This document shows positions 23,853 to 40,942 of a stretch of 64,000 nucleotides of DNA, piece by piece. The position numbers and the translations under genes are program-made. Position 1 is the stretch's first letter. Each line of letters begins with the position of its first letter. Under the pieces are notes generated by a model that saw only the letters and a program-made list of their open reading frames with translations, did no database searches and was not told where the DNA came from. Source of the stretch: Luteimicrobium xylanilyticum (GTDB taxonomy: Bacteria; Actinomycetota; Actinomycetes; Actinomycetales; Cellulomonadaceae); assembly GCF_009429125.1 (NCBI RefSeq), contig NZ_CP045529.1, forward strand, positions 3,658,001-3,722,000, given 5' to 3'.

Positions 23853-26800
23853 TCAGCGGTGACCGTGGCCCCCGTGGCCCCCGTGGCCGTCGTGCCCACG
23901 AGACTCGGCGAGGGTGAGGACCGCGACCGTGCGGGCCGGCACGGTGACCGTGCCGGTGCGCGCGTCCCACGTGGTCCGCTTGACGACCGGGTCGTCACCC
24001 TGGCGCTGGAGAGTCGAGAGTACGTAGCCCTTGCCCTGCAGCGCGGAGAGCGTCTCGGTGGCCGTCGTCGTGCCCGCGTTGAACACGACCAGGACGCCGT
24101 CGAGGTTCCGGTCGACGTCCTTGCCGCGCGTGTCGTCGACGTTCATCGCGATCACGCCGGGCGTGGTCGTCGTCGGGAACGTGAGCTTCTGCTCGACGAG
24201 CTTCGCGGAACCCAGCGAGAACAGCGACGTCGAGCGCTTGAGCCGCAGGAGCTGCTGCGCCTCGTCGGTCGCGGTCGCGATGTCCTTCGCCGTCGGGTCC
24301 AGGGCCTTGTCGGCGAGCAGCGGCTTCATGACCGACCACTGCGAGCCGTTGTCCCCGGACATCGGCAGACCCTTGCCGAACCCGTTCGTCCTCCCGGACC
24401 AGTCGATCGCGTTGAACCAGTCCCCCGAGTTGTAGCTGTTGTTGTCGAGCGACTTGCTGCGCAGCAGGTCGGACCCGGCGAGCCACAGCGACGGCGACTG
24501 CGACAGCGTGGCCGTCGCGAGCGACAGCGTCTGCATGCGCACCCGGTCCGCCATCGACGTGGCCTGCGGCAGCTTCATCGTGAGCGCGTCGAAGAGAGTC
24601 TGGTTGTCGTGCGCGTCGACGTAGGAGATGGACTCGTCGGGCTCGCTCGCGTAGCCCGCGGGCTGACCGTTGTAGTCGACCTCGGAGCCCTTCTTCGTCG
24701 TCCCGTCCGACGTGACGAGGCTGAAGTCCTTGAGGTTGCCGGACAGGCCGAGCTTGACGAGGTCCTCGTCGTGGCCGAGCAGCGCCTTCGACGCGTCGTC
24801 CGCGGTCCCGTACGACGGGTTCCCGTTGGGGTCGGTGAACAGGCCGGAGCCGAAGCCCTGCTGCTGGACCGTCGACGCGTCGACGGGAGACCCGCCGCGG
24901 ACGCCGTCGCGCAGCCGGTCGTTGAACGTCCCGATCCCGGTCCCGTCGAGCTGGCCCTGGGTGGCCTGCGTGAAGTACGCGTTGTTCGCGACCGCGCCGA
25001 AGTTCCAGCCCTCGCCGTACAGGTAGATGCTCTTCCCGTCGACGCCGTCCTTGCGGAGCGTGAGCCTGTCGAGCGCGGCGCGCACGGCCTTCATGTTGTC
25101 GACCGAGTGGAAGCCCATGAGGTCGAACCGGAAGCCGTCGACCTTGTAGTCCTTGGCCCACAGCACCACCGAGTCGACCATGAGCTTCTGCGCCATGGTG
25201 TGCTCGGTCGCGACGTCCTGGCAGCACGTCGAGGTCTCCACCGACCCCGCCGCGTCGAGCCGGTGGTAGTAGCCCGGGACCACGCGGTCCAGCACCGACT
25301 GGGGGTCCTGGCCCGACGCCGAGGTGTGGTTGAAGACCTCGTCGACGACGACGCGCAGCCCGTCCGCGTGCAGCGCACCGACCATGGTGCGGAACTCCGC
25401 GACGCGCGAGCCGCCGTCGGGGTGCACCGCGTACGAGCCCTCGGGGGCGAGGTAGTGCAGCGGGTCGTAGCCCCAGTTGTAGGCGTCGGAGTCCGCGACC
25501 GCCCCGACGCACGCCTGCTGCTGGTCGGAGTCGGGGGCGTAGGAGGCCAGCTCGCTGTCGGTGCAGACGGGGGACTTCTGCTGGGACCGGTCCTCGTTCA
25601 CCGAGGCGAAGTCGAACGTCGGCTGCAGGTGGACGGTCGTCAGGCCCGCCTTGGCCAGGGCCCTGAGGTGCTCGGTCCCGTCGCTGGTCGTCGCGAAGGC
25701 GCCGTAGGTGCCGCGGAGTGCCGCCGGGACCGTGGGATCCGTGGCGGAGAAGTCGCGGACGCTCAGCTCGTAGATCGTCTGCTGGGTCGGGTCCGCGACG
25801 CGCGGGGACGCCGTCCGGGCCCACTGCGACGGCTCGAGCGAACGGTCGTCGAGGCCGACGAGCACCGAGCGGGTCGAGTTCGTCGTGAGGGCGACCGAGT
25901 ACGGGTCCGTGACGTCGTTGGTCTCGACCCGGCCCGTGGTGGGCGCGTAGACCTTCACCTCGTACAGATACTGCCGGTTGCGCCACGACGGCGAGCCGGC
26001 GACGGTCCACGTCCCGTCCGACGCGCGGTGCGCCCGGACGCGCTGCGGCGCCCCCGTGCCGGACGACGGGTAGAGCAGGAGGTCGACGTCCTGCGCGGTC
26101 GGGGCCCACAGCGCGAGCCGCGGCGCACCGTGCGTCCACGTCACGCCGAGGGTGCGGCGCTGCGCGGAGGTGCCGTAGACGTCGTCGAGCACGCCGGGGA
26201 CCTGCACGCCCGTGAGCGCCCGGAGCGTGCCCTCGCCGTCCCAGGCCGCGAGCCTCAGCTCGCCCCGCAGCGCACGCTCCACGGCGGAGCGGGACAGGTG
26301 GCGCGGATGGAGCGCGACGTAGCCCCGAAGCGCCGGGAACCTCTTCAGCTGCGCGGCCGTCAGCCCGTTCGGGTCCGCGGTCAGCGGGACCTTCGTGCCG
26401 CCACCGATCGTGCTGCCGTCGCGCGTGAGCGACGCGTCGGCGGACGAGTACAGGGCCCAGGTGGTGGCCTGCGGGACGAGGTCGGCGGGGACCGCGACGG
26501 TCCGGGCGTCGACCCACTGCGCGGCGTCCTCGGCCTCGCCGGCGACGGGCGCGTCGGTGACGTCGACCGCGAGCACGTGCGTGGCGAGCGTGTAGGTCAG
26601 CACGACCTGCTTGCCCGACTCGACCGTGAAGGGGATCGGGTCGCCGCCCTTCGCTCCGCCCTGGCCGTAGACCTCGTCGTCGGACAGGCCGTGCGCGACG
26701 CGCACGTGGTACGTCCCGGCCGTCAGCCCCGTGAGCTTCGCGGTGTAGGTCCCGTTGCCGTCGGGGTCCTCGAGCCAGGCGCCGAGGCAGTCCGCGTCGT

Positions 26801-27278
26801 CGTCGGCGGAGCAGCCGAGCTGGGTCTGGAAGTCGCCGACCGCCGAGACGATGGGGTCGGCGGCGGTGTTGGTGGCCCAGTGCGTGACCGGGTCGTAGAA
26901 GAACGTGACGGGCTTCGAGCCGTCGGTCGTGTACGTGATGTTGGCGCCGCCTTGCGCGCCGCCCGCACCGTAGTTCACGTCCCACGAGTCGTTCAGCGCG
27001 GCCTTGTACTCGTAGCTGCCGGCGGGCAGGTCGTAGGTGCGCGACCAGACGCCGTCGGGCCGCTGGGTGAGCTCGGCCTGCGCGCAGCTCACGTCCCAGT
27101 CGCTCGCGCAGCCCATCTCCGTGTTGTGCGTGCCGGGGATGCTGACGTGCTGGGCGTCGGCGGCGGAGGCCGCCACGATGCCCGGCACCGTGACGAGGGG
27201 GACGAGGACCGCGGCCGCGGCGCCGGCCGCGAGGGTTCGGGGGATCCGGGCCGCACGGCTCCGGGGTCTGGTCGACAT
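23853..27278 (-). CDS. pulA: Secreted pullulanase (GH13) with two X25-type modules
   Basis: 1141 residues from ATG 27276-27278 (RBS AAGGAGAG). A signal peptide (RR then hydrophobic core, cut near ASAADA) is followed by two tandem X25-type modules (about 44-138 and 142-240; shared patterns NYGAGGAQGG and VYGQGGAKGG), a pullulanase N-terminal domain, and the GH13 barrel. Type-I pullulanase motif YNWGYDP (about 600), nucleophile Asp719 in DGFRFDLMGF, acid/base Glu756 in YGEGWNF, and Asp891 in VDAHDN are intact. It hydrolyses alpha-1,6 branch links in pullulan or limit dextrins. The C-terminus is a Gly/His tail (HDGHGGHGGHGHR). It lies downstream of the dextran operon but has its own 230-bp leader. 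Confidence 0.93.
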   Translation of the reverse strand: MSTRPRSRAARIPRTLAAGAAAAVLVPLVTVPGIVAASAADAQHVSIPGTHNTEMGCASDWDVSCAQAELTQRPDGVWSRTYDLPAGSYEYKAALNDSWDVNYGAGGAQGGANITYTTDGSKPVTFFYDPVTHWATNTAADPIVSAVGDFQTQLGCSADDDADCLGAWLEDPDGNGTYTAKLTGLTAGTYHVRVAHGLSDDEVYGQGGAKGGDPIPFTVESGKQVVLTYTLATHVLAVDVTDAPVAGEAEDAAQWVDARTVAVPADLVPQATTWALYSSADASLTRDGSTIGGGTKVPLTADPNGLTAAQLKRFPALRGYVALHPRHLSRSAVERALRGELRLAAWDGEGTLRALTGVQVPGVLDDVYGTSAQRRTLGVTWTHGAPRLALWAPTAQDVDLLLYPSSGTGAPQRVRAHRASDGTWTVAGSPSWRNRQYLYEVKVYAPTTGRVETNDVTDPYSVALTTNSTRSVLVGLDDRSLEPSQWARTASPRVADPTQQTIYELSVRDFSATDPTVPAALRGTYGAFATTSDGTEHLRALAKAGLTTVHLQPTFDFASVNEDRSQQKSPVCTDSELASYAPDSDQQQACVGAVADSDAYNWGYDPLHYLAPEGSYAVHPDGGSRVAEFRTMVGALHADGLRVVVDEVFNHTSASGQDPQSVLDRVVPGYYHRLDAAGSVETSTCCQDVATEHTMAQKLMVDSVVLWAKDYKVDGFRFDLMGFHSVDNMKAVRAALDRLTLRKDGVDGKSIYLYGEGWNFGAVANNAYFTQATQGQLDGTGIGTFNDRLRDGVRGGSPVDASTVQQQGFGSGLFTDPNGNPSYGTADDASKALLGHDEDLVKLGLSGNLKDFSLVTSDGTTKKGSEVDYNGQPAGYASEPDESISYVDAHDNQTLFDALTMKLPQATSMADRVRMQTLSLATATLSQSPSLWLAGSDLLRSKSLDNNSYNSGDWFNAIDWSGRTNGFGKGLPMSGDNGSQWSVMKPLLADKALDPTAKDIATATDEAQQLLRLKRSTSLFSLGSAKLVEQKLTFPTTTTPGVIAMNVDDTRGKDVDRNLDGVLVVFNAGTTTATETLSALQGKGYVLSTLQRQGDDPVVKRTTWDARTGTVTVPARTVAVLTLAESRGHDGHGGHGGHGHR

Positions 27279-27316
27279 GCGCTCTCCTTCGAGTGATGAC
27301 CGCCCCGCCGCATGGC

Positions 27317-30300
27317 TCACCGCACGACTGCAACGTCCTGCAAGATGTGCAACAGGGAGAAACGAGCACCACCGTAGACGCGCGGCGGAGAGACGACAAG
27401 CCGTCGCGACCCCCAGGCATGCGCGTCCAGACGCAGACGCGGGGAGGTTTCGCCCTTGTCAAAAAGGACAAACCTCCCCGCATCCCTTGCAGCAACTCTC
27501 AGGTGACCGGGCGCGCTACCTACGGCTGCCCGAGACCCCCCCCCCCCCCCCGGGCTCAGCCGCACGAACGGGAGTACCGGACCGCCCGGCTGCGGTGCGA
27601 GCACCTTCGCCTGCGTGGTCCCGCGCGGCACGAACGTCTTGACCACGTTGCCGTCCGAGGTGTCGGAGTCGAACGGTGACTGGTCCGTGGGCACGCCCCG
27701 GCCTCCGCAGAAGCGCCACTCGCCGGTCCACGACGGGACCCCTGCGGCTGTGCAGTCGAACACGGGACGCACGTTGGACACCCCCTCCCCGTCCTCGGCG
27801 GCGCTCATCATCGCGACGACGAACGAGGCCTTGGACAGGTCCATGCCGTCGAACACGCTCGCGGGGATCGTCAGCACGATGTCCTTCTGCTCGCGGACCG
27901 TGAGCGTCGCATCGCCCACGCGCGTGCCGTCGGAGGCGAACACCCCGGTGGTACCCGTGGCACCCCGCTGATGACGTGGGTTCGCGACGGCGACGAGCTG
28001 CCACGGATCCGAGGTGCTGACGTTGGTCCCGGCGAGGGCGGGCGTCCGGCCCGACCCGCCGGCGGTCCCGCTCCTGATGTACACGTGGACGAGCTGCAGG
28101 CTCATCCCCTCCAGCGCCCACGGGTTGAGGATCTGTCCGTCGACCGTCGTCACGAGGTTGACGTTCTTCCCGTCCCGGTAGACGGCGAACGACGTCATGT
28201 CGAACGACCCGTCGGTGAACACGTCGGCGCTCGGGTACTGGTAGGTCCCGGGACCGTCGTCGTGCCCTGCCGGCGTCGACAGCGAGCCCACCAGCGTGCC
28301 GTAGCCGCCGTCGGCGTCCGTGGAGGCGCGGGTGCTGAACACCAGCGGCCGGGAGACCGTCGCGGTCCCGCGGCCGGTGACCTTGAGAGGCGGACCGGCG
28401 GTCACCTTGACGGTGGTGCGCTTCGGGCCGATCACGAGGTCGAAGGTGGTCCCCTGGAACTTCATGCCCGTCAGGCGGATCTCGTCCAGCGCGGTCGGGA
28501 GCACGGGCGACAGCGAGATGCCGTCCGTCCCCCAGCGCAGCCCGCTGTAGCCGTAGTAGAACTCCTGCAGGAACCCGCCGGCCCCCGTGACGAAGGTGAA
28601 GGCGTGCCCGCCGCCACGCTCCTCGGTGAACTGCTCGAACGGGCCGCGCATGAACGCCGTCGAGGAGCGCTGGGTGAACCAGTACGCCTCCTCGCTGCGG
28701 CCGAGCCCTGCCGCGACGATCGAGTGCATCGCATCGGTCATCGACGGGCTGGCGTTCTCGTCCACCTTCGTGGAGTAGTAGTCGAGGTCGCTCGCCGTGA
28801 GCTCGTCCGACTGCTCGTGCTGCCACGGGTACGTGAGCATCACCGCGTCCGCCTGCTTGATCGTCCGGCCGTCGTAGCCCGCGTACTCCTGGGTGACGCC
28901 GCGCTCGGCATCCGTCGGGACCACGAGGCCGTCGGCGACCTTGGCCCACTCAGGTGCAGGCGTCTCGTGCACGACGTCGGCCGCCTGCGCCGCCAGCCGG
29001 AGCACCTGGGCCGCAGCGACGTTCGTGTACGCCGAGTCGTCCCGACCGACCGAGCCGTTGCTCGCCCACTCGTCCGGCGGCGTCACGTCGTCGATGTGGT
29101 ACTTCCCGTCGGACCCACGGGTCGAACGACTCACCCAGAACTCGGCCGCACCCTTGAGGACCGGCCACCCCTCCTTCTTCAGCCACGCCTTGTCCCCGCT
29201 GGCTTCGTAGTACTGCCAGAAGGCCAGCGCGACGTCGGCCGTGATGTGGACCTCGTGCCCGCCGAAGAACAGCGACGTCGTCTGCTCCTTGCCGTCCAGA
29301 CCGCCCTCCCACGGGAACCGGATCCCGTCGTAGCTCTGCGCACGGTACGTCTGCGTCGACGCGTCGTACTCCATGGTGTGGCGCGCGTTGTAGCGCGCGT
29401 CGTCGAGACGGTCCACCCGGTACTGCAGCACCGCCTTCGCGAGATCCGGGTCCTGCGCGACGAGCGACGGCCACATCCAGGTCTCGGTGTCCCAGAACAC
29501 GTGGCCTCCGTAGTTGCCGGACGACAGCCCGGCGGGGGTCGGCGACCAGGCCCGTTCACCCACGCTCGCGAGCAGGTAGAAGCGGCTCGCGCGGATCTGC
29601 CGCTGGAGCTCGTCGTCGCCCTTGACCTGGACGTCTCCCTGCCACAGCGTCGCCCACGCCCTGTCGCTCAGCCGCCGGGCCGTGCCGTACCCGCGGTCGG
29701 AGGCCCTCTCCGCGACGCGCGCCGCAGCGCTCGTCGTCTGCGAGGCGCGCTCGACGTCCTGCGTGGTCGCGAGGCCCACGAACTTGGTGAACGCGTAGGT
29801 GCGTCCCGCCGAGACGCGCGCCGTGAGCGTCTGCTGCACGGCGCCGGAGGCCGCCACGTCCTCGTCCTGGCTCAGGCTTCCGCGCCCCTGGAGCTCGGAG
29901 ACGACGCTCGCACGCTGGTTCGTGCCGGGCAGCGTCGTCGTCAGGCCGATCTGCTGGTCCACGCGGCTCGCCGAGCGCGTGAAGGTGGCGTCCTCCGGCG
30001 CGGCACGGGGGTCGAGGACGTCGGTGACGGCGAGCTCTCCCGTCCAGTGCGGCCGCACGGTGACGCGGACGACGCCGAGCTGGTCGTCGGCCCTGCTGGG
30101 CAGGACCGTGTACTCCACGTCGCTCTTCCTTCCGGCCGGTGAGGTCCACGTCGCCCGTGTGCTGATGGCGCCCGTCCGGAGATCGAGCGTCTGGCGGTAC
30201 CCGCTCAGGCCGCGTTCCGTCAGGCCGACCTCGGTGGCGCCCTCGACCGGATCGGCCCCGGCCTTCACGAGCGCGACGTCGTCGACGTTGACGCGACAGT

Positions 30301-31141
30301 CCTGACCGGACGCGCAGCCGAGTGCGACCTGGGTGCTGCCGGCGTCGCTCCGGACCGGCACACGGACCGTCTCCCAGTCGTCCCAGCCCCCGGTGGCCGG
30401 GAGGTCGACGGTCTGCGCCGAGCCGCCGACCGTGACCGTGAGCTCGCGCGCCGCGGCCGTCCCGTCACCGGGATCCCCCGCCGCGTACCGAATCAGGAGC
30501 TCGGCGTCGTCCGCCGAGGTCCCGGTGACGGCGACGACCGAGCGCGACCCGACGGTCCCCCAGCCCTGCACGAACGCCGATCCCCGGTAGCCCGAGTGGT
30601 CGGTGGCGGTGGACAGCCCGCCCGAGAGGTCGGCGTCCTCGGCCTGGCAGACCGTCCCGAACGCGCAGGCGGCGCCGAAGGCGTCGTCGAAGCTGCCCGA
30701 CCCGTCCGAGACCGTCAGACCGGTCCACGCCGGTCCGGACTCACGCGCCTGCTTGCCGTCGTCCCCCGAGGCGTAGAAGCCCTGGATCTGGAACGACGTC
30801 GGGACGTCCGCCGTGCTGTAGCCCTGACCCTGCGCGGGGACGCGGGCCGCGAAGTACCCGTTCCCGGTGAAGGTCGGGTAGTAGCTCCCGTCGAACGGAT
30901 CGGTCGCCACCAGCCGCCAGGGCGATCCGCCCGTCGAGCCGTGCGAGCCCTGCGCCCCCGCGCCCGACGCCGCGGCGACGGTGGTCCCGGTCGCCGCGAG
31001 GGCGACGCTCAGGACGCCCACGAACAGCCGTTGCGACACGCGGCGCAGGGTGCCGCGCGCGGGAGACCACCTTCGCGGTCTCCCGTGGCGACGGCCGTGA
31101 CCGCGAGGGTCCGGAAAGGACGACGTACTGACCTGCGACAT
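27317..31141 (-). CDS. Secreted GH65 glycosidase with inserted CBM and glucodextranase-like C-terminus
   Basis: The open frame is 1274 residues. A long N-region with a signal (about 36-63) leads to the GH65 N-terminal sandwich, which is split by a CBM6/35-like module (about 165-293; CQAEDADLSGG ... GYRGSAFVQGW). The (alpha/alpha)6 barrel spans about 500-880 with FWDTETWMWPSL, acid Glu691 in PPDEWASNG, IKQADAV and HEQSDE. Residues about 953-1195 match the C-terminal domain of the neighbouring GH49 protein. GH65 holds phosphorylases and hydrolases of alpha-1,2/1,3/1,4 glucosides; secretion favours a hydrolase (acid trehalase or kojibiose hydrolase type). The homology ends at PFVRL; a G16 tract (27536-27551) then runs into about 78 residues of likely non-coding sequence, so the real stop is probably near 27516-27550. 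Confidence 0.85.
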   Translation of the reverse strand: MSQVSTSSFPDPRGHGRRHGRPRRWSPARGTLRRVSQRLFVGVLSVALAATGTTVAAASGAGAQGSHGSTGGSPWRLVATDPFDGSYYPTFTGNGYFAARVPAQGQGYSTADVPTSFQIQGFYASGDDGKQARESGPAWTGLTVSDGSGSFDDAFGAACAFGTVCQAEDADLSGGLSTATDHSGYRGSAFVQGWGTVGSRSVVAVTGTSADDAELLIRYAAGDPGDGTAAARELTVTVGGSAQTVDLPATGGWDDWETVRVPVRSDAGSTQVALGCASGQDCRVNVDDVALVKAGADPVEGATEVGLTERGLSGYRQTLDLRTGAISTRATWTSPAGRKSDVEYTVLPSRADDQLGVVRVTVRPHWTGELAVTDVLDPRAAPEDATFTRSASRVDQQIGLTTTLPGTNQRASVVSELQGRGSLSQDEDVAASGAVQQTLTARVSAGRTYAFTKFVGLATTQDVERASQTTSAAARVAERASDRGYGTARRLSDRAWATLWQGDVQVKGDDELQRQIRASRFYLLASVGERAWSPTPAGLSSGNYGGHVFWDTETWMWPSLVAQDPDLAKAVLQYRVDRLDDARYNARHTMEYDASTQTYRAQSYDGIRFPWEGGLDGKEQTTSLFFGGHEVHITADVALAFWQYYEASGDKAWLKKEGWPVLKGAAEFWVSRSTRGSDGKYHIDDVTPPDEWASNGSVGRDDSAYTNVAAAQVLRLAAQAADVVHETPAPEWAKVADGLVVPTDAERGVTQEYAGYDGRTIKQADAVMLTYPWQHEQSDELTASDLDYYSTKVDENASPSMTDAMHSIVAAGLGRSEEAYWFTQRSSTAFMRGPFEQFTEERGGGHAFTFVTGAGGFLQEFYYGYSGLRWGTDGISLSPVLPTALDEIRLTGMKFQGTTFDLVIGPKRTTVKVTAGPPLKVTGRGTATVSRPLVFSTRASTDADGGYGTLVGSLSTPAGHDDGPGTYQYPSADVFTDGSFDMTSFAVYRDGKNVNLVTTVDGQILNPWALEGMSLQLVHVYIRSGTAGGSGRTPALAGTNVSTSDPWQLVAVANPRHQRGATGTTGVFASDGTRVGDATLTVREQKDIVLTIPASVFDGMDLSKASFVVAMMSAAEDGEGVSNVRPVFDCTAAGVPSWTGEWRFCGGRGVPTDQSPFDSDTSDGNVVKTFVPRGTTQAKVLAPQPGGPVLPFVRLSPGGGGGSRAAVGSAPGHLRVAARDAGRFVLFDKGETSPRLRLDAHAWGSRRLVVSPPRVYGGARFSLLHILQDVAVVR
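27328..27353 (-). promoter_or_regulatory. Three TTGCA repeats in the pullulanase leader
   Basis: On the + strand TGCAA occurs at 27329-27333, 27339-27343 and 27348-27352, about one helical turn apart, 50-75 bases upstream of the start codon. A palindromic TTGCAGCAA lies at 27487-27495. TTGCA-containing repeats are familiar as operators in actinobacterial amylase and maltose promoters controlled by LacI-type MalR; assignment to such a regulator is inference. Confidence 0.45.
27439..27481 (-). terminator. Hairpin after the GH65 gene
   Basis: Perfect 12-bp inverted repeat (27439-27450 and 27470-27481) with an inner TTGTC/GACAA pairing and an A5 (T5 on the minus strand) in the loop. It lies just past the expected end of the GH65 gene and upstream of the pullulanase leader, so it probably ends the dextran operon transcript. 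Confidence 0.6.
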
Positions 31142-31186: not shown

Positions 31187-34100
31187 TCAGTGCCGCAGCA
31201 GCCCGGAGAGGTCGAGGGGCCCCGACCCCGCGTAGTGCACCCGGTAGCTCTTCGACGTCTTGTCCGGTGCGCTGGCGGTGATGCGCAGCGTGGCCGGTGG
31301 GAGCCAGGGCAGGTGGGTGTCGACCGTGAAGGACCGCGTGGCGCCCGCTGCGACCGTGCCGAGCCTCCGCGCGCCGAACAGCCCGGGCGTGGTCAGCGTG
31401 ACGGCCGTGTCGCCGTCGTTGCGCGCCTTGATCGTGAGGACCTGCGAGCGCCCCACCTTCGCGCTCGTCGCCGTGAGCTGCACGTCCACGACGGTCGGCG
31501 CGGAGTCGAGCCGGACGTACGGGACGACGACGCGCCCCTTCGTCCAGTCCATCACCACGGACTGGGGACGGGCACCCGAGATGACGTCCAGGGCGTTGCT
31601 GTCCGTGACGTCGGTGTCCTTGGCGTCCCCGACGTCGGTCCAGCTGCCCGCGCCACCACCGAGCCGGTACTGGCCGCCGGTCGCGTAGACGGGGCGGACG
31701 TTCCCGACGCCCTCGCCGTCCTCGGCGTCGCTGAACATCGAGACCTGGTAGGCGGCCGTCCGCAGATCGACGCCTCGCAGCACGCGGGCCGGCACCGACG
31801 AGACGATCTTCCCTGCGGGGATCACCGTCAGGTCGGCGTCACCGACCCTGCTCAGGTCCGCGCCGTAGACCCCGGTGCCGAACCTCGACGAGTCGTAGCG
31901 GCCGTCCGCCACCACGGCGTACCGCCACGTGCCGGCCGCCGACGTGTTGGTGCCCGGCAGCAGGTCCGTCGTCTTCTTCGATCCCCCGTCCCTGACGTAG
32001 ACGTTGAGACGCTGGGTGCTCATCCCGTTGCCACCCCACGGGTTGTGGATCTCTCCGGCCGTCGACGCCACGAAGCGCACGACGTCCCCGTCGCGGTAGA
32101 CGTCGAACCCGGTCAGGTCGAAGCTGCCCTGGTTGAACGCGCCGTCGGTGGGATACGTGTAGCTCCCGGGCCCGTCGTCGTCGCCGGTCGGATCGCTGAC
32201 CGAGCCGACCTTCGTGCCGAACGCGTAGAGAGTGAACCGCTGTACGTTCACGACGCCGTCGGCGCCGACCGCGGTGACACGGACCCGGTTCGAGATCGCA
32301 CCCAGGTCGACGGTGGCCGAGTACGTCCCCGAGGAGGAGACCGCGGCGGAGGTCGTGACCCCGTCGGCGGTGACCGACACCGAGACGGCGTCGGTCTTCC
32401 CCGTGACCGTCAGCGACCGCGACGCTGCCGTGTCGCCGTCGTGCAGCCCGTCCACCGTGAGTGCCGGCTGCGCGCCGGTGGGCTGGCCGTCGCTCGTGGC
32501 GTCCCAGCTGTCCCACGTGTCCGCGTCGAAGTCGAGCCGGCCGAGCTCGTCGGACGCCCAGTTGTCACCGGCCTTCAGGACGGGGACACCGCCGACCGTG
32601 TAGTCGTGCAGCAGGATGCCGTCGCCGTCCTGCGTCTCGTTCCCGATCGAGACCTTGTTCCCGGCGGTGTCGGTGTACCGCTTGAGGAGGCTGACCTGGG
32701 ACGACGGGTCGAGATCGTTCCAGGCGTCGATGTGCAGGCCGTCGATCTCGACGTTCCTGGTGTTCGACAGGGCGAAGTCCCGGATCGCGCAGTTCGTCAT
32801 GCCCTCGACCCGCGTGTTCGTGAAGCGCATGTTCTTGACGGTCGTGGCCGTGTCCGCCCGGTCCGTCGCGCTCATGTCCTCCCAGTGCGACGAGGAGTTG
32901 AAGATGCAGGTGTTGTACTTGACGTCCTTCCAGTACATCCGGTTGTGGATCACGTCCGTGTCGGCGACGGTGACGCCGTCGATGTCGCGCGGAGTCCAGC
33001 CCCACTGGACGACGGGGCCGTTCTCGTTCTTCCAGATCACGGTGTTCTTGATGTCGACGTCCGAGTGGTAGAGCTTGAGGACGTCGTCGTTGGCGTGGAA
33101 GAACGTGTCCTTCATCCGGCCGCCGTCGTAGAGCTCGATCCCGTCGGTCTGCCAGTACCAGCTGCCGACCTGCTTGTAGTTCTCGACGTTCATCTGGAAG
33201 CCCGTCACCGGGATCTCCGTGTCGCCGTCGTGCGCGTACACGACGAACGAGTGGTACGGCGGGGAGGCGATGGTCACGCCCTGGAGGTCGAGCGTCTGCT
33301 GCGTGTCCGACGACTCGAACTGCAGCATCTTCACGCAGCTGACGTGGCAGTTGTCGCTCGTCGTGTGCGCGTAGCCGTTCGCGGTGTCCGCCTCGTAGAC
33401 GTACTGCTCGCCTGACAGCACCCCGAGCCCCGTCACCTTGTAGTGCGCCTGCGTGTCGTGCGGGAAGCGGAACGCGCCCTTCACGTAGGCGCCGGGCGCG
33501 AGGTAGACCCACTTCACGTTCGCCGGGAGCTGTGCACGGTAGTCGGCACCCATGGAGTACGTCCCGGGCCCGAAGTACACGATGTCCTGGGTGATCGAGT
33601 CCAGGTCGTCGACCTTCCCGGGTGCCGGACGGTAGATCGACCCGTCGGCGTCCGTCGGCGCGAGACTGTCCTCGTCCTGCGCGGACGGCTCGGGGTTCGC
33701 GAAGACCAGCATCGAGTTCTGAGGCTCCGTGTCCACCGCCCGGTTGCCGTCCGCGACGGTCGTGAGCTCGCCGCTCGCCCCCGACATGTCGTTGTACGCG
33801 GTCACGAGCTGCGGGTCGAACTCGACCGAGAACCGATAGCCGTCGCTCGAGTACGGCACGTGCACCCGGATCGTGTGGTCGTCCACGAGCTGCTTCTCGA
33901 AGCCGAGATTCGTGGGCCGGATCGTGACCTGGTCCGCCGAGCTGATCGTCTGCCCGGTCTTCAGGCTCACGTCGACCCAGACGTCGGTCGAGTACTCGAA
34001 GCTGGACCAGCTCATCGTGAGGTTCGCCGACGACGAGAACTCGGCACCGTCCTGCTCCGTGTACCCCCGCTTGCCCTCGCCGCTGCGGGGCACGCTCATG

Positions 34101-34438
34101 TAGACGAACGAGCGGTACGCCGCGTCGGGTGCGTCGGTCGTCGCGACCGTCGCGTCGTAGACGGTGGACCGGCGGACCTGGTCGTCCGGCACGGACCCGG
34201 TCGTGGCGACCGAGTTGTCGTGCCACCACGTGGTGAGCGAATCGCTCGCCGCGACGGGCAGGTCGTCCGGGTCCGTGGCGGTGGTCGCCGCCGCCGAGGT
34301 CGCGCCGGGCGCGCTCTCGGCGGCGGTGAGCTGCGCCGTCGTCCCGGCGAACGCGCCCCCGGCGGGGACGAGGACCAGCCCTGCCAGGGCCGCGACGGCG
34401 GCCGCGACCCGTCGTGCATGGAACGTGCGTCTCATCAT
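31187..34438 (-). CDS. Secreted GH49 dextranase/isopullulanase-type hydrolase
   Basis: 1083 residues. Signal peptide (about 1-32), GH49 N-terminal beta-sandwich, then a right-handed beta-helix. The catalytic Asp triad is visible as Asp432 (WYWQTDGIEL) and Asp451-Asp452 (FFHANDDVLKLY); the 19/20-residue spacing equals that of the Penicillium Dex49A triad (376, 395, 396). GH49 enzymes cut internal alpha-1,6 links of dextran or alpha-1,4 links of pullulan. After an Ig-like segment (about 660-740) comes a glucodextranase-like domain (about 748-975) and a final CARDB-like domain. Operon position between a GH13_31 and a GH65 gene supports dextran or isomalto-oligosaccharide breakdown. Confidence 0.9.
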   Translation of the reverse strand: MMRRTFHARRVAAAVAALAGLVLVPAGGAFAGTTAQLTAAESAPGATSAAATTATDPDDLPVAASDSLTTWWHDNSVATTGSVPDDQVRRSTVYDATVATTDAPDAAYRSFVYMSVPRSGEGKRGYTEQDGAEFSSSANLTMSWSSFEYSTDVWVDVSLKTGQTISSADQVTIRPTNLGFEKQLVDDHTIRVHVPYSSDGYRFSVEFDPQLVTAYNDMSGASGELTTVADGNRAVDTEPQNSMLVFANPEPSAQDEDSLAPTDADGSIYRPAPGKVDDLDSITQDIVYFGPGTYSMGADYRAQLPANVKWVYLAPGAYVKGAFRFPHDTQAHYKVTGLGVLSGEQYVYEADTANGYAHTTSDNCHVSCVKMLQFESSDTQQTLDLQGVTIASPPYHSFVVYAHDGDTEIPVTGFQMNVENYKQVGSWYWQTDGIELYDGGRMKDTFFHANDDVLKLYHSDVDIKNTVIWKNENGPVVQWGWTPRDIDGVTVADTDVIHNRMYWKDVKYNTCIFNSSSHWEDMSATDRADTATTVKNMRFTNTRVEGMTNCAIRDFALSNTRNVEIDGLHIDAWNDLDPSSQVSLLKRYTDTAGNKVSIGNETQDGDGILLHDYTVGGVPVLKAGDNWASDELGRLDFDADTWDSWDATSDGQPTGAQPALTVDGLHDGDTAASRSLTVTGKTDAVSVSVTADGVTTSAAVSSSGTYSATVDLGAISNRVRVTAVGADGVVNVQRFTLYAFGTKVGSVSDPTGDDDGPGSYTYPTDGAFNQGSFDLTGFDVYRDGDVVRFVASTAGEIHNPWGGNGMSTQRLNVYVRDGGSKKTTDLLPGTNTSAAGTWRYAVVADGRYDSSRFGTGVYGADLSRVGDADLTVIPAGKIVSSVPARVLRGVDLRTAAYQVSMFSDAEDGEGVGNVRPVYATGGQYRLGGGAGSWTDVGDAKDTDVTDSNALDVISGARPQSVVMDWTKGRVVVPYVRLDSAPTVVDVQLTATSAKVGRSQVLTIKARNDGDTAVTLTTPGLFGARRLGTVAAGATRSFTVDTHLPWLPPATLRITASAPDKTSKSYRVHYAGSGPLDLSGLLRH

Positions 34439-34489: not shown

Positions 34490-36226
34490 TCAGCGGGCGG
34501 GGGTCACGAAGACCCGTGCCTCCCACGGCCGCAGGACGGCGCCGGCAGCACCGTCCTCGTAGTTGGCGAGGATCAGCTCGGCCCCGTCCTGGCCGGCCGA
34601 GACCGCGTCGTCGGCGGGCGCGTCCGACAGGTTCACGAGGACCAGGAGCGTCTGCTCGCCAAGCGTGCGTCGGAACCCGAAGACCGCCGGGTTCCCGGTG
34701 TCGACGCGGGAGTAGTCGCCCACGGCGACGACCTCGCGCTCGTGCCGGAGCGCGACCAGGCGCCGGTAGTAGGAGAACACCGAGCGCGGGTCGTCGTACT
34801 GCGCCTCGGCGTTCAGCCAGGTGTGGTTCGGGTTCACGTCGATCCACGACGCCCCCTGGGTGAAGCCGGCCCCCGGGCTCGCCTCCCACTGCACGGGAGT
34901 GCGGGCATTGTCCCGGCCGTTGCGGCGCATCCCGTCGAGCACGGCCTCGGCCGTCAGCCCGGTGCTCGCGGACTGGGCGAAGAAGTTCAGGCTCTCCACG
35001 TCGCGGAAGTCCTCGAGCGTCTCGAAGGCGCCGTTGGTCATCCCCAGCTCTTCGCCCTGGTAGATGTACGGGGTGCCCCGCAGGAGGTGCAGCATCGTGG
35101 CCAACGCGGTCGCCGACTCCCGCCAGTACGCCCCGTCGTTCCCGAACCGCGACACGGCACGGGGTTGGTCGTGGTTCGAGAGGTAGAGGCTGTTCCAGCC
35201 CTCTCCTCCCACCGTCTCCTGCCAGCGCGACAACGAGTCGGCGAGCGCACCGGGCGCGAGGTCCTGCGGGTCGAACTTGGACGCGCCGTGGTCCAGCCCG
35301 ACGTGCTCGAACTGGAAGACCATGTCGAGCTCGCGGCGCGCGGGCGCGGTGACCAGCAAGGCCTCCTCGGTCCCGACCCCGGGCATCTCGCCGACGGTCA
35401 GCATCCCCGGACGGCCGTCGAAGACCTCCCGCCGCATCTCCTGGAGGAACTCGTGGAGCCGGGGTCCGTGGGCGTAGTGGGCGAAGCCGTCGCCGCGACC
35501 GGTCGCCGGGTCCGTGGCGGTGGCGTCGGGAAGCGCGACGTCCTTGGAGATCAGGTTGATGACGTCCATCCGGAAGCCGTCGACACCGCGGTCCAGCCAC
35601 CAGCGCATCATCGAGTAGACCGCCTCGCGGACCTCGGGGTTCTCCCAGTTGAGGTCGGGCTGCTTCGTCCCGAAGAGGTGCAGGTAGTACTGGCCCGTCG
35701 TCTCGTCGAGCGTCCAGGTGGGGCCCGAGAAGAACGACTCCCAGTTCGTGGGCTCCGCCCCCGGCTCCCCCGCGCGGTGGCCAGGACGCGGGTCGCGCCA
35801 CCAGTACCAGTCGCGCTTGGGGTTGTCGCGCGACGACCGGGACTCGACGAACCACGGGTGCTCGTCGGACGTGTGGTTGACCACGAGGTCCATCACGAGC
35901 CTCATGCCTCGCGCGTGCACGGCCTCGAGGAGGCGGTCGAAGTCGTCGAGCGTCCCGAACACCGGGTCGATGTCCTGGTAGTCGCTGATGTCGTAGCCGT
36001 TGTCCGCCTGGGGCGACCGGTAGACCGGCGACAGCCAGATCACGTCGACGCCGAGCCGCGCGAGGTGGTCGAGCCGTCCGACGATCCCCGGAAGGTCACC
36101 GATCCCGTCGCCGTCGGAGTCCGCGAAGCTGCGCGGGTAGATCTGGTAGACGACCGCGGACGTCCACCAGGGCGCGCCGTCGGCACCCTCCTCGGCGGAG
36201 GTACGGGCAGGGTCGAGCAGGGTCAT
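34490..36226 (-). CDS. GH13_31 oligo-1,6-glucosidase / dextran glucosidase
   Basis: 578 residues, cytoplasmic (no signal). GH13 motifs: MDLVVNHTSDEH, nucleophile Asp221 in GFRMDVINLI, acid/base Glu280 in LTVGEMPG, and Asp353 in SNHDQPR. Val222 directly after the nucleophile is the residue that marks alpha-1,6 specificity in the oligo-1,6-glucosidase group (alpha-1,4 enzymes have Ala or Thr). It would release glucose from imported isomalto-oligosaccharides. ATG 36226 has GAAGGA eight bases upstream; the TTG two codons earlier is too close to that site. Confidence 0.93.
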   Translation of the reverse strand: MTLLDPARTSAEEGADGAPWWTSAVVYQIYPRSFADSDGDGIGDLPGIVGRLDHLARLGVDVIWLSPVYRSPQADNGYDISDYQDIDPVFGTLDDFDRLLEAVHARGMRLVMDLVVNHTSDEHPWFVESRSSRDNPKRDWYWWRDPRPGHRAGEPGAEPTNWESFFSGPTWTLDETTGQYYLHLFGTKQPDLNWENPEVREAVYSMMRWWLDRGVDGFRMDVINLISKDVALPDATATDPATGRGDGFAHYAHGPRLHEFLQEMRREVFDGRPGMLTVGEMPGVGTEEALLVTAPARRELDMVFQFEHVGLDHGASKFDPQDLAPGALADSLSRWQETVGGEGWNSLYLSNHDQPRAVSRFGNDGAYWRESATALATMLHLLRGTPYIYQGEELGMTNGAFETLEDFRDVESLNFFAQSASTGLTAEAVLDGMRRNGRDNARTPVQWEASPGAGFTQGASWIDVNPNHTWLNAEAQYDDPRSVFSYYRRLVALRHEREVVAVGDYSRVDTGNPAVFGFRRTLGEQTLLVLVNLSDAPADDAVSAGQDGAELILANYEDGAAGAVLRPWEARVFVTPAR

Positions 36227-36282
36227 CGACAAGTTCCTTCGGTGGTGCGGTCAGGGCGGTCGGCCCGGGACGACGGCGGCGC

Positions 36283-37206
36283 CTACTTCACGGCGCCGAG
36301 GTTCACGCCGCGCATGAGGGTGCGCTGGAAGAGGAGGAAGAACACCAGCGCCGGGAGGATCCCGACGAGCGACGCCGCGGCGAGCGCGGTCGGGTCGCTC
36401 GTGTACTGGCCGGACAACGCACCGAGAGAGACGGAGACGGTCTGGTTCGAGGCCGAGGGCAGCAGGATCAGCGGGAGGAAGAAGTCGTTCCACGTCCAGA
36501 TGAAGAAGAACGTGAGGAGCACACCCAGCGTGGGCCGGGTCAACGGCAGCACGATGTGGCGCAGGACCTGGAACCTGCTCGCGCCGTCCAGGCGCGCTGC
36601 CTCGAGCACCTCCGACGGGAAGGCGCCCAGCACCGACGCGAGCATGTACGTGCCGAAGGCGCTCTGCAGGACGGCGGAGATGATGATGACGCCGAGCCGG
36701 GTGTCGTAGAGGTCCAGGTCCCTCGTGAGGACGAACAGGGGGTAGACCAGCGCCTCCTGAGGGATGGTGAACGCCACCATGAAGATCGCCAGGATCCAGA
36801 TCCGCCCGCGGATCCGGCCGATTCCGATCGCGAACGCGCTGAGCAGGCTCAGCGCGACACCCGCGACCGCGACGCAGCCGCTGATGACCACGCTGTTGAC
36901 CAGCTTCTGACCGAAGTCGACACCCTTCCAGAAGTCGACGACCGCCTGGAACGACAGGTGGCTCGGGAGGGTCAGGGGGGACCCGCTGATGTAGTCCTCG
37001 GACGTCTTGAACCCGTTGACGAGCGCGATCCAGAACGGGAAGAGCATCAGCAGCGCGCAGGCGACCACGACCGCGAGCACGACCCAGCCGCTGATCCCCC
37101 GTCGTGAGCGGGCGCCCCGGCGTCGAGGGGTGGTCGGCCGCCCGGCCGGTGGTGCGGTGTCGAGGGTCGTCGGCTGCGGCGTCACCGAGGCCGTGTCGGT
37201 CGTCAT
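36283..37206 (-). CDS. Sugar ABC transporter permease, MalG type
   Basis: 307 residues; an N-terminal basic segment, six membrane helices and the EAA loop EAARLDGASRFQVLRHIVLP that contacts the ATPase. Family CUT1, importer of oligosaccharides. Its start overlaps the stop of the preceding permease gene (ATGA). Confidence 0.94.
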   Translation of the reverse strand: MTTDTASVTPQPTTLDTAPPAGRPTTPRRRGARSRRGISGWVVLAVVVACALLMLFPFWIALVNGFKTSEDYISGSPLTLPSHLSFQAVVDFWKGVDFGQKLVNSVVISGCVAVAGVALSLLSAFAIGIGRIRGRIWILAIFMVAFTIPQEALVYPLFVLTRDLDLYDTRLGVIIISAVLQSAFGTYMLASVLGAFPSEVLEAARLDGASRFQVLRHIVLPLTRPTLGVLLTFFFIWTWNDFFLPLILLPSASNQTVSVSLGALSGQYTSDPTALAAASLVGILPALVFFLLFQRTLMRGVNLGAVK

Positions 37207-38153
37207 TGGTCCAGCCCTTCGGTGGAGCGTGCCTGGTATCGCATCGCGACGACCGCGACGACGGTGACCACCACCGCGAGCACGGTCGCGACGGCTGCTC
37301 CGTACCCGACCCGCATGGTGGTGAAGAAGTTGTAGTAGGAGAAGTAGGAGGGCACGATCGTCGACGTCCCGGGGCCGCCCTTGGTCAGCATGTAGATCGG
37401 CGCGAAGACCTTGAGGGCTGCGACGGAGGTCGTGATGAGGACGACGGCGATCTCCGGACGCAGCTGGTTGAGCGTGATCGTGCGGAACCGCTGCCACCAG
37501 TTCGCCCCGTCGAGCTCCGCCGCCTCGTACAGCGCGGGGTCCACACGGGAGAGCCCGGCCATGAAGATGACGACGGTGTAGCCGATCTGCAGCCACACGA
37601 GGACGTTCATGACGGCGTAGATGGCCAGGTGCGCGTCACCGAGCCAGTTCTGCGCGAGGGACCCGAGGCCGACGCTGCGGAGCACCGTGTTGATGACCCC
37701 GTAGTCGGGTTGGTACATCCACTTCCACAGCACGCCGGCGACCGCGATCGGGAGGATCTGCGGCAGGTAGAACGTGGCGCGCAGGATGCTCCCGGTACGC
37801 GTCCCGAACCGCGGCGCGATGAAGTCGAACAGGACCGCGGCGACCAGGACGCCGAGCGCGGTCGGGATGATCGCCATCGCGACGATGAAGTAGATGCTGT
37901 TGCGGAACGACGTCCAGAAGGTCGCGTCGTGGAACAGCGTGGTGTAGTTCGAGAGGCCGACGGGCGTCATCGTGCCCACGCCGGACCAGGAGTGGAAGGA
38001 GTACCAGATGTTCATGCCGAACGGCACGAGCACGACGGCGGCGAAGCCGATCGCTCCGGGCGCGAGGTACCACCAGTAGCCGGCGGTCCGTTCGCTGGTC
38101 CCGGTGCGACGACGCACCGGTCCGGAGCGGACGGCCTGGGTCGTTGAAGTCAT
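37203..38153 (-). CDS. Sugar ABC transporter permease, MalF type
   Basis: 316 residues with six predicted helices and the EAA loop YEAAELDGANWWQRFRTITL. Partner of the MalG-type permease. ATG at 38151-38153. No ATPase gene follows; CUT1 importers in actinobacteria often share one ATPase (MsiK type) encoded elsewhere. Confidence 0.94.
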   Translation of the reverse strand: MTSTTQAVRSGPVRRRTGTSERTAGYWWYLAPGAIGFAAVVLVPFGMNIWYSFHSWSGVGTMTPVGLSNYTTLFHDATFWTSFRNSIYFIVAMAIIPTALGVLVAAVLFDFIAPRFGTRTGSILRATFYLPQILPIAVAGVLWKWMYQPDYGVINTVLRSVGLGSLAQNWLGDAHLAIYAVMNVLVWLQIGYTVVIFMAGLSRVDPALYEAAELDGANWWQRFRTITLNQLRPEIAVVLITTSVAALKVFAPIYMLTKGGPGTSTIVPSYFSYYNFFTTMRVGYGAAVATVLAVVVTVVAVVAMRYQARSTEGLDQ

Positions 38154-38218
38154 GTCAGTCCTGTTCCCGGGGGGCCGGGCGACGACGAGCGGCGTCGCCC
38201 GGCCCGCTCTGCGGCCGG

Positions 38219-39526
38219 CTACTTGCCGGCCGGCTTGCCCTGTTCGTAGGCGCTCTTGATCGCGTCGACGAGCTGATCGGGCGTCGTGGTTCCCTGCGTC
38301 AGGGAGCTGATCTGCTGGAGCAGCACGTCGTTGAGCCCTGCGGCCGGCCAGTCGGGGTACCAGGCGAGTCCGCCGTCCTTCTCAGCCAGGAGCTTGTTGA
38401 ACGTCGTGGACTGCAGCGTCCCGACCGGGGAGGTCACGGCCGAGGGGTCCGCCGCGATGGGCACCCCCGCCTTGTTCCCCAGCATGTTCTGGATCTCGGG
38501 GCTCAGCGTGATCTCGATGAAGTCCTCGGCGAGGGTCTTGTTCTCGGCCTTGGCGGGAACCACCCAGATGTTGCCGCCCGACCCCGGGGTGAAGGTCGTG
38601 TCGGGCCACCGGAACTGGTCCCACTTGAAGGACTTGATCTTGTCCTGGAAGGTGCCCGCCCACCAGGTGCCGGAGTAGAACATCGGGTACTTCCCGGCCT
38701 CGAAGGCGTTGCCGGAGTCCTGGGCGCTCACGCCTGTCGAGCTCTTGGCGATGTAGCCCTTCTTCACCCAGTCCTGGTAGGTCTGGGCGGCCTGCTGCCA
38801 CGCCGACCAGTCCGGCTCGCCGGTGAACTGCTGGTAGGCCGACCACGAGTCGTGGTTCATGTGCAGCAGCGCAAGCTGGTAGAGCAGGTGCTCGCCGGGG
38901 TAGTCGTTGGATCCGAGGGCGAGCGGCGTGATCTTGTGGTCGACGAACGTCTGCATGTCCGACTCGAGCTCGTCGAGCGACGTCGGCACGCTGAGCCCGT
39001 ACTTCGCGAAGAGGTCCTTGTTGTAGTACATGCCGACGTACTCGCCGTAGTTGGTGACGCCGTAGCGCTTGCCCGTCCCCATCACACCGCTGGCGTCGTA
39101 CAGGCCCACGTCCTGCGCCGAGTTGTCGAGGTCCCAGCCGCGGTCCTTCGCGACCTGGGTGAGGTCCGTCAGCAGGCCGGCCTTCGCGACGCTGCCCGCG
39201 GTGGCGTTGCCCTTGAGGTACTCCAGCACGTCCGGCGTGTCCTTGGAGTCCAGGATCAGCTGGCCGGACTGCTGCATCTGGTCGTAGGTCTTGAGCTCGA
39301 ACTCGACCTTCACTCCCGGGTGCTTCTCCTTGAAGATGTCGATCGCCTTGTTCCAGGCGTCCGAGAGAGCCGAGTCGTCGTTCTCCCACCACCAGACCTT
39401 GAGGGTCTTCCCGTCCCCTCCGGTCGCGGCGCCCGAACCGTCGGACGATCCCGAGCAGCCGGCCAGGGTGAGGGCCAGCGCCGCTGCGGCCGCGGCGGCC
39501 GCCAGCACGCCTCTGTGCTTACGCAT
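38219..39526 (-). CDS. Sugar-binding lipoprotein of ABC transporter
   Basis: 435 residues, extracellular solute-binding family 1. Lipoprotein signal with lipobox LAGC (Cys24) after an Ala-rich core. ATG 39524-39526 follows GAAGGAGA. Mature start KTLKVWWWENDD is typical of CUT1 binding proteins. First gene of the alpha-glucan operon; the ligand is inferred to be an isomalto- or panose-type oligosaccharide from the enzymes encoded downstream. Confidence 0.94.
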   Translation of the reverse strand: MRKHRGVLAAAAAAAALALTLAGCSGSSDGSGAATGGDGKTLKVWWWENDDSALSDAWNKAIDIFKEKHPGVKVEFELKTYDQMQQSGQLILDSKDTPDVLEYLKGNATAGSVAKAGLLTDLTQVAKDRGWDLDNSAQDVGLYDASGVMGTGKRYGVTNYGEYVGMYYNKDLFAKYGLSVPTSLDELESDMQTFVDHKITPLALGSNDYPGEHLLYQLALLHMNHDSWSAYQQFTGEPDWSAWQQAAQTYQDWVKKGYIAKSSTGVSAQDSGNAFEAGKYPMFYSGTWWAGTFQDKIKSFKWDQFRWPDTTFTPGSGGNIWVVPAKAENKTLAEDFIEITLSPEIQNMLGNKAGVPIAADPSAVTSPVGTLQSTTFNKLLAEKDGGLAWYPDWPAAGLNDVLLQQISSLTQGTTTPDQLVDAIKSAYEQGKPAGK

Positions 39527-39644
39527 CCATGTCTCCTTCTGAGTCACGACCTCGTCGTAGTGAGCACTCGTGCCACCGACCCGGACCCGGGAGGAGGCAA
39601 CGCACGGGACCCGCTCCGGGACCCCCGTTTCTTTCGCGACAACA

Positions 39645-39673
39645 TTAACGACCATCGAAGGCTTCGACGTCAA
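39645..39673 (-). promoter_or_regulatory. Promoter with palindromic operator for the alpha-glucan operon
   Basis: On the minus strand TTGACG (39668-39673) forms a good -35, followed 17 bases later by CGTTAA (39645-39650, or the nearby TTAATG) as a weaker -10. The spacer contains the perfect palindrome TCGAAG-C-CTTCGA (39655-39667). An operator in this position would block RNA polymerase; the adjacent divergent ROK regulator is the obvious candidate to bind it. Confidence 0.6.
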
Positions 39674-39760
39674 GTGGGGCCCGATCACGGTTCGGACTCG
39701 TCAGGCTGGCTGCACTAAGTTCCGCGGCTGTAGTATCGACGGCGACCGAGAGGAGGCCTG

Positions 39761-40942
39761 GTGGCCCGACCCGCATCACCGTGGTCGCAGCTGAGCCCGT
39801 CCAGTCGTCGTGTCGCGCTCGAGGTGCTGCTGCACGGGCCGCTGGCGCGCGCCGAGATCGCCACGCGCCTGGACCTGTCCGCGCCGAGCCTCACCAGGCT
39901 GACGAAGCCGCTCCTCGACGCGCGGCTGCTGCACGAGGTCGCCGACGCCGGCCAGCGTGCCGCGGGCGGCCGGCCGCTCCAGCCCCTCGACATCCAGGCG
40001 GACGTCCAGCGCTTCATCGGGATCAAGCTCGCAGGATTCCGCGCCTACGGCGTCCTCACGAACCTCCGCGCCGAGATCATCGCCTCCGACGTCACCGAGA
40101 TCGGCGACCAGTCGCCGACCGCCGTCGTCGCCAAGCTCGAGGAGCTCGCGAAGAAGCTGTCGCACGACGCCGCCGACCAGGTAGCGGCCGTCGGTGTCGC
40201 ACTCGGAGGTGCCGTCCGCGGGTTCTCCCACGTCGAGCGCGCCCCCTTCCTGCACTGGCGCGACGTCCCGCTCGGCGGCCTGGCCGAAGCCACGCTCAAG
40301 CTCCCGACCGTCCTGACCAACGACGTGGACGCCCTCATGGAGGCCGAGCACTGGTTCGGTGACGGCCGCGACGTCCAGAACTTCGCCACCCTGACCATCG
40401 GCGCCGGCGTCGGCGGCGGGCTGGTCGTGCACGACCGGCTCGTCACCGGCCCCGACTCCGGCCTCGGCCTGCTCGGGCACTTCCCGCTCGACCCGCTCGG
40501 CCCCGCGTGCCCCGAGGGCCACCGGGGATGCGCGGACGCCCTGCTCAGCACCGAGGCGATCCAGGTCCAGGCGGCACTCGCACTCGGGCGCCCCGTCACC
40601 TACGACCAGGTCATGGACCTGGCACAGGCGGGCGACCCCGTCGCCGAGCAGCTCGTGGGCCGCTCCGCCCACGCGTTCGGCCTGCTGATCGCGGCGGTGG
40701 CCAACATCGCGCAGCCCGAACGCATCATCCTGACCGGAGAGGGGATCCGTCTGGCCCACGTGGGCGAACGTCAGCTCCGCAGCGCCCTCGCCCAAGCCCG
40801 GGTCCCGGAGGCGTCACCGCTCGACCTACGGGTGCTCGAGGACGACCCCGACCTGTGGGCCCGAGGAGCGGCCGCTGTCGCCATCCAGCGGACGGTGCTC
40901 GCCCACCTGCCCGACCACCGAGCCATGACCGTCTCGAGGTAG
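39761..40942 (+). CDS. ROK-family transcriptional repressor
   Basis: 393 residues. Winged HTH of MarR/NagC type at the N-terminus (ARAEIATRLDLSAPSLTRL) followed by a ROK domain. The kinase-type phosphate motif DxGGT is replaced (GIKLAGFRAYGV), as in repressors, and the Zn motif CxCGxxGCxE is degenerate (CPEGHRGCAD). Start is GTG 39761 after GAGAGGAGG. It is divergent from the alpha-glucan operon and is expected to repress it until an imported sugar binds. Confidence 0.92.
   Translation: MARPASPWSQLSPSSRRVALEVLLHGPLARAEIATRLDLSAPSLTRLTKPLLDARLLHEVADAGQRAAGGRPLQPLDIQADVQRFIGIKLAGFRAYGVLTNLRAEIIASDVTEIGDQSPTAVVAKLEELAKKLSHDAADQVAAVGVALGGAVRGFSHVERAPFLHWRDVPLGGLAEATLKLPTVLTNDVDALMEAEHWFGDGRDVQNFATLTIGAGVGGGLVVHDRLVTGPDSGLGLLGHFPLDPLGPACPEGHRGCADALLSTEAIQVQAALALGRPVTYDQVMDLAQAGDPVAEQLVGRSAHAFGLLIAAVANIAQPERIILTGEGIRLAHVGERQLRSALAQARVPEASPLDLRVLEDDPDLWARGAAAVAIQRTVLAHLPDHRAMTVSR

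Follow-up and report, generated by a model that had tools for sequence, protein, structure and literature searches.

A CBM35-type module inserted in the N-terminal domain of a GH65 enzyme of Luteimicrobium xylanilyticum

What is a carbohydrate-binding module (CBM) doing in the middle of a catalytic protein's N-terminal domain? The question is raised by a glycoside hydrolase family 65 (GH65) gene of Luteimicrobium xylanilyticum, 1,274 codons long, at 27317-31141 of the window, by which we mean the whole 64,000-nucleotide stretch analyzed here. The gene was delimited from a list of open reading frames (ORFs), Pfam matches, and an AlphaFold model; it and all of its parts lie on the minus strand, and all coordinates are window positions unless a locus of a relative (L plus a number) is named. 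A sequence-only reading had placed a CBM6/35-type beta-sandwich at residues 165-293 (30264-30648), described it as inserted in the N-domain and not fused to an end, called this unusual, and suggested that the module may sit beside the active-site pocket. The peptides it quoted were all found in this ORF in the order given, and its coordinates match its residue numbers. Modeling and comparison with relatives now give good support to the prediction that residues ~159-295 fold as a CBM35-type beta-sandwich of their own, set into a single hairpin of the GH65 N-domain.

The GH65 N-domain is split by a separately folding module

We modeled residues 66-945 with AlphaFold from 44 sequences, comprising the window protein, 21 insert-bearing relatives, and 22 insert-free relatives. 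The model reached a predicted local distance difference test score (pLDDT) of 90.7 and a predicted template modeling score (pTM) of 0.89, with strand 138-145 entering the module and strand 312-320 following it. Superposition by VIA-align on FjGH65A, the kojibiose hydrolase of Flavobacterium johnsoniae (PDB structure 7fe3), matched 642 of 659 residues (Z 51.2, root mean square deviation [rmsd] 2.0). Because this module-free enzyme is placed nearly completely on the model, nothing in it corresponds to the ~135 residues of the module. Folded on its own, the module gave a pLDDT of 93.5 and a pTM of 0.89. The full model, the superposition, and the independent folding together rule out that the segment is an integral part of the N-domain, and they bear out the earlier reading of an insertion over an end fusion.

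The first part of the N-domain, residues 70-157 (30671-30934), was delimited by alignments and modeled strands and holds the loop aligned to FjGH65A residues 71-78 as well as strand 138-145. The second, residues 301-460 (29762-30241), includes strand 312-320 and the Pfam GH65N match at 305-460, which is the main one of the two stretches into which that match falls. In the insert-free relatives L035 and L036, the GH65N match is continuous.

An alignment of 84 rows, made up of the window protein, three further loci, and the best 79 of 363 relatives (L070 supplying two rows), showed the same division. The spacing from Gly136 to Gly324 is 182 to 195 residues in 24 sequences and 33 to 70 in the other 60, which lack the module at the same point; given the sampling of best-matching relatives, 24/84 should not be read as a frequency in the population. 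Across the insertion point, a profile of 16 insert-free sequences aligned to FjGH65A without a long gap. Beyond this set, the insert was found at L116, L120, L146, and L152. The set itself excludes minus-strand matches in the fetched loci (the second GH65 of L102; L008) and the distant loci L008-L033, and no CBM-profile match was listed for L008-L033, where flanks are short and L009 and L010 matched only through their Glucodextran_C part. With 24 aligned sequences carrying it, the insert is not unique to the window genome, and the description of it as unusual was too strong.

The inserted module is of the CBM35 type

The module was identified from Pfam, from PDB sequence matches, from its own fold, and from its absence in 60/84 aligned sequences. 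Searched alone, the segment matched Pfam CBM_6 with an E value of 6.5e-8 and 33.4 bits, over the gathering score of 28.9; when the whole GH65 protein was searched, the same model matched residues 166-292 (E 5.3e-6, 27.2 bits), slightly below that score. The CBM_35_2 model scored 19.2 bits, under its gathering score of 23, and the gathering score of CBM_35 was not reached either. Among the aligned inserts, at E≤0.01, CBM_6 matched 22/22, CBM_35_2 matched 18, and CBM_35 matched 11. In a phmmer search of PDB chains, the segment matched a cycloalternan-forming enzyme with an E value of 1e-13, and also a GH31 glucosyltransferase and several CBM35s. Matches of this strength are not due to chance.

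Structural comparison of the lone module by VIA pointed the same way, and each of the 12 top rows was an enzyme that forms or cleaves alpha-1,6-glucosyl bonds. The best was the GH31 glucosyltransferase 5x7o (Z 20.9, 134 residues, rmsd 1.5), followed by the Listeria cycloalternan-forming enzyme (Z 20.1-19.0 across its entries), cycloisomaltooligosaccharide glucanotransferases (CITases; Z 19.2-18.7), and isomalto-dextranase (Z 18.6); isolated or other CBM35s reached Z values of 18.5 or less. Pfam alone would name the module CBM_6, and structure and PDB matches say that it is a CBM35 with a beta-jelly-roll fold. The proposed CBM6/35 type therefore holds, with CBM_6 over its gathering score, a CBM35 fold, and CBM35 matches in the PDB.

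The limits of the module are better drawn at residues ~159-295 (30257-30667) than at 165-293, because the Cys-x5-Cys at its base belongs to it. Both cysteines, Cys159 (30665-30667) and Cys165 (30647-30649), are Cys in 24/24 inserts. GC content at third codon positions (GC3) over the insert, 0.95 for codon block 171-255 and 0.88 for 256-340, resembles that of the rest of the gene. A second Cys-x5-Cys (C276 and C282; 30296-30316) lies toward the end of the module in the window protein and some relatives, and is missing from most Streptomyces inserts.

A putative sugar-binding site is conserved, probably away from the catalytic pocket

CITases offer a guide to the binding residues, as their CBM35 has a variable-loop site and a lateral-edge Trp that builds distant subsites (PMC5408701). 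The PsCITase motif W507-x-x-W510-x4-W515, which we obtained by translating the published PsCITase primers, corresponds to W253-x-x-W256-x4-V261 in the window module. Trp253 (30383-30385), the stacking Trp of the variable-loop site, aligns through the WxxW motif to Trp507 of PsCITase CBM35-1 and is Trp in 23/24 inserts and Phe in the remaining one. At the lateral-edge position (Trp515 of PsCITase, V261 here), Trp occurs in 0/24 inserts. Each of H182, R218, Y219, N285, and D287 is kept in 22 to 24 of 24 inserts.

Where the module stands relative to the pocket can be judged from FjGH65A, in which Arg74, on an N-domain loop, contacts the +1 sugar (PMC10316084), be it in its own or in a neighboring subunit. 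By alignment count, this loop corresponds to window residues of about 125-136, directly before strand 138-145, and the insert departs from the opposite end of that strand. This position argues against a module beside the active-site pocket, and with the CITase subsite Trp also missing, that part of the sequence-only reading is not supported.

The Arg74-aligned loop itself holds Arg133 (30743-30745), which is Arg in 23/24 insert-bearing sequences versus 14/60 insert-free ones and may, from this distribution, mark a substrate group. We considered that replacement of FjGH65A Arg74 by Gly129 opens the +1 site for internal branches and dropped the idea, as the loop alignment is loose and R133 is nearby.

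Catalytic residues indicate a hydrolase

The central catalytic domain spans residues 535-756 by its Pfam GH65m match (28874-29539). Alignment to FjGH65A places the general acid at Glu691 (29069-29071; FjGH65A Glu472) and the general base of GH65 hydrolases at Glu840 (28622-28624; FjGH65A Glu616), and both are Glu in 84/84 aligned sequences. At subsite -1, W550, D551, and Q763 are kept in 84/84 and K762 in 80/84. W611 and E612 correspond to Trp391 and Glu392 of FjGH65A, which are kojibiose +1 residues. On these residues, the enzyme is predicted to be a hydrolase, with a Glu of the hydrolase type as general base where a phosphate site would otherwise lie. The top NCBIfam model was kojibiose hydrolase (NF053734).

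A likely role in dextran debranching, and its alternatives

The window enzyme is likely to be a secreted, exo-acting dextran alpha-1,2-debranching hydrolase, kojibiose-hydrolase-like in its catalytic part, with an inserted CBM35 that binds the alpha-1,6 main chain. We read the module as an alpha-1,6-glucan binder because the top VIA rows are alpha-1,6-glucosyl enzymes and the stacking Trp is so widely kept. The dextran assignment follows from gene order. A GH49 dextranase-type gene with Glucodextran_B and Glucodextran_C domains (31187-34438, minus strand; Pfam) adjoins the GH65 gene, and a relative with the same insert and D-domain (L153) lies beside two GH49 genes. In the relative these are in tandem (12000-15557 and 15557-18478 of L153, minus strand), directly upstream of the GH65 ortholog, and both carry Glucodextran_B and Glucodextran_C, so that this C-terminal domain is common across the dextran gene cluster. 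The further one, two genes from the ortholog, is 59% identical to the window GH49.

The two halves of the GH65 N-domain close round the module, as the model and the insert-free relatives show. With its variable-loop site, the module would grip the alpha-1,6 main chain and thereby keep the catalytic pocket, which would be exo-acting and inverting, attached to the polymer, where alpha-1,2 glucosyl branches would be taken off singly. From the gene order, the adjacent GH49 enzyme could then cut the debranched chain, and the products could be imported by a sugar ABC transporter (two permeases and a solute-binding protein; 36283-39688, minus strand; Pfam) and split by a GH13 alpha-glucosidase-type enzyme (34490-36232, minus strand; Pfam and NCBIfam). 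A polymer-holding module would make sense because CBM-free FjGH65A is weak on polymeric branched glucan and good on short branched pieces (PMC8626586). If this is right, it explains how an exo-enzyme with a pocket, akin to hydrolases of small sugars, can act on a polymer, and the sugar and prebiotic fields gain a candidate for the debranching of alpha-1,2-branched dextran.

Several observations weigh against this assignment. The substrate is read solely from gene order in two genomes, and no obvious dextran gene stands beside the insert-bearing genes of L034, L148, L149, L150, and L151, as judged from the starts of the neighboring ORFs. FjGH65A Thr407, a +1 contact, is Phe626 in the window protein. 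The NF053734 score of 395.9 bits falls short of the cut-off of 800, which leaves the protein outside that family model. The top CBM rows lie only 0.1 to 2.4 Z above the best CBM35 of other specificity (4qb1, Z 18.5), and several are tied. The replaced Thr407 and the neighbors of the other insert-bearing genes, which are not obviously dextran related, would also suit an enzyme for another alpha-glucoside, such as trehalose or glucosyl-galactose, with a CBM for a different glycan; the next structure in rank is human PGGHG, which is a Glc-alpha-1,2-Gal glucosidase. We think this improbable, however, given the GH49 and Glucodextran_C neighbors in two genomes and a CBM nearest to alpha-1,6-glucan modules.

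As in GH66 CITases, where a CBM35 inserted in the catalytic domain supplies subsites (PMC5408701), the module could do more than hold the polymer and form part of the active-site cleft as distant acceptor subsites; CITase-type modules are among its closest folds, and the Cys-x5-Cys base could fix its pose. Yet the lateral-edge Trp515 is Val261 here and is Trp in none of the inserts, the insert leaves from the strand end far from the Arg74-aligned loop, and two members have apparently lost the module cleanly (see below), and we regard a cleft role as unlikely. Very unlikely, in our judgment, is a module that is structural or vestigial, stabilizing the N-domain or an oligomer after sugar binding has gone. 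Repeated loss in relatives would fit it, as would the reports that FjGH65A oligomerizes through an N-domain loop near this region (PMC8626586) and that a CBM35-like domain of dextran dextrinase without sugar-binding residues is still required for activity (PMC12446779). But the stacking Trp and H182, R218, Y219, N285, and D287 are conserved to a degree not expected of a vestige.

Relation to described enzymes

A debranching enzyme of this build appears to have been described already. Microbacterium dextranolyticum has a GH65 enzyme, located both at the cell surface and in the culture supernatant, that releases glucose from alpha-1,2-branched dextran (PMC10316084). No description of a CBM inserted in a GH65 protein was found in the literature searched, which did not include the study of the M. 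dextranolyticum enzyme by Miyazaki et al. (2023, J. Appl. Glycosci. 70:15). That study reportedly gives the enzyme a signal peptide, GH65, a CBM35, a D-domain like the glucodextranase C terminus, and a C-terminal transmembrane region. The L152/L153 ortholog, with its CBM inserted, shows this same set of parts. The window protein differs from the M. dextranolyticum enzyme (MdDDE) in lacking a C-terminal transmembrane or anchor part. The window enzyme is most likely a further member of the described kind.

FjGH65A shares with the window enzyme the fold, the acid and base, the subsite -1 residues, and Trp391/Glu392. It differs in having neither CBM nor Glucodextran_C, in Thr407 where the window has Phe, and in its weakness on polymeric branched dextran. 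The GH66 CITases likewise have CBM35-1 inserted in a dextran-active enzyme, with the same glucan-stacking Trp motif, but their host is a TIM barrel, the insertion is in its seventh loop, and they have a second site at Trp515 that the window module lacks. The closest CBMs by sequence profile and fold belong to GH31 proteins with tandem CBM35s (5x7o, and L147 in the same genome); these are tandem modules, in contrast to the hairpin insert in the N-domain here.

Evolution of the insert

On a tree of the GH65 core, built without the insert columns, presence and absence of the insert take six changes. The window protein groups with Rarobacter faecitabidus (insert) and Bifidobacterium aquikefiri (none), then with Mycetocola reblochoni (none). 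Of the 71 CBM domains in a second tree, the 29 inserted ones are separated by a single branch from the 42 others (support 85/77; 81% of bootstrap trees). This sample is not neutral, as the 42 are matches in the fetched loci to a profile built from the inserts. Duplicates (L001-L004, L113, L127, and L144) had been removed from this tree, and matches under about 110 profile positions had been dropped. These sequence trees fit one old insertion with several later losses, on a branch that is not strongly supported; repeated independent insertions are not favored, since all inserts share one side of it. Modules may also have been exchanged between lineages.

Two insert-free sequences, of L070 (ORF from 9754) and L074 (ORF from 5728), are nested in an insert-bearing clade and retain the post-CBM linker of their kin (GAQPPT...GTTSNYRQSL and similar), and so look like clean domain losses that left linker scars. 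The branch adjoining the inserts, weakly resolved, holds CBMs of the window genome's GH31 protein (L147 2156-5398, minus strand) and its kin. This GH31 has two N-terminal CBM35-type modules (Pfam GH31 with CBM_6/CBM_35), and the second one ranks with the closest relatives of the inserted CBM group.

We offer a broader scenario only as a tentative and rather doubtful one. A single ancient intradomain CBM35 insertion might have founded an Actinomycetota lineage of polymer-debranching GH65 enzymes, in which a rigid arm built on the Cys-x5-Cys would hold out the dextran main chain in such a way that its branches come within reach of the pocket; where lineages returned to small substrates, the arm would have been cut out cleanly, with the linker scars left behind. 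What an inserted CBM gives an enzyme, compared with an appended one, is a testable question, and the window and Rarobacter enzymes, with the insert, form natural pairs with that of B. aquikefiri, which is of similar identity and has none.

In a Micromonosporaceae metagenome-assembled genome (L046:5956-11679), a 1,908-residue protein has two tandem GH65 units, each with its own inserted CBM, and an F5/8-type domain.

Domain layout, distribution, and gene neighborhood

The GH65 protein begins with a signal-peptide-like start (by eye), followed by the split N-domain with its CBM35, the (alpha/alpha)6 catalytic domain, the GH65 C-terminal domain at residues 868-925 (28367-28540; Pfam), a Glucodextran_C domain at 953-1182 (27596-28285; Pfam, E 1.9e-35), and a short tail. 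Its GH65N, GH65m, and GH65C matches all exceed the Pfam gathering scores. The tail, residues 1191-1274 (27320-27571), was set apart by GC3 and by comparison with the tails of relatives, which are Ig-like, Ser/Pro-linker, or transmembrane. GC3 of the last ~84 codons is 0.68, versus 0.87 to 0.98 in the remainder of the gene. By eye, the tail has no hydrophobic segment or anchor, as is present in relative L152. It is probably a recent read-through; the gene seems to have lost its anchor, so that the frame now happens to stay open up to a stop codon next to the pullulanase gene.

The gene occurs sporadically. With a limit of E≤1e-60, homologs were found in 3/150 genomes of the family sample, 1/198 of the order sample, and 1/3 of the genus, each count including the window's own genome. 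Another genus of the same order (g7) yielded an ortholog of 53% identity in one genome out of 295. This L153 ortholog, 1,281 residues long, shares the inserted CBM and Glucodextran_C; it also has a Ser/Pro linker and, at its C terminus, a hydrophobic stretch and a basic tail.

Around the gene cluster described above, a pullulanase-type gene lies downstream of the GH65 gene (23853-27320, minus strand; Pfam, and NCBIfam TIGR02103 over its cut-off), and a divergent ROK-family gene, likely a regulator, is found at 39761-40942 on the plus strand (Pfam).

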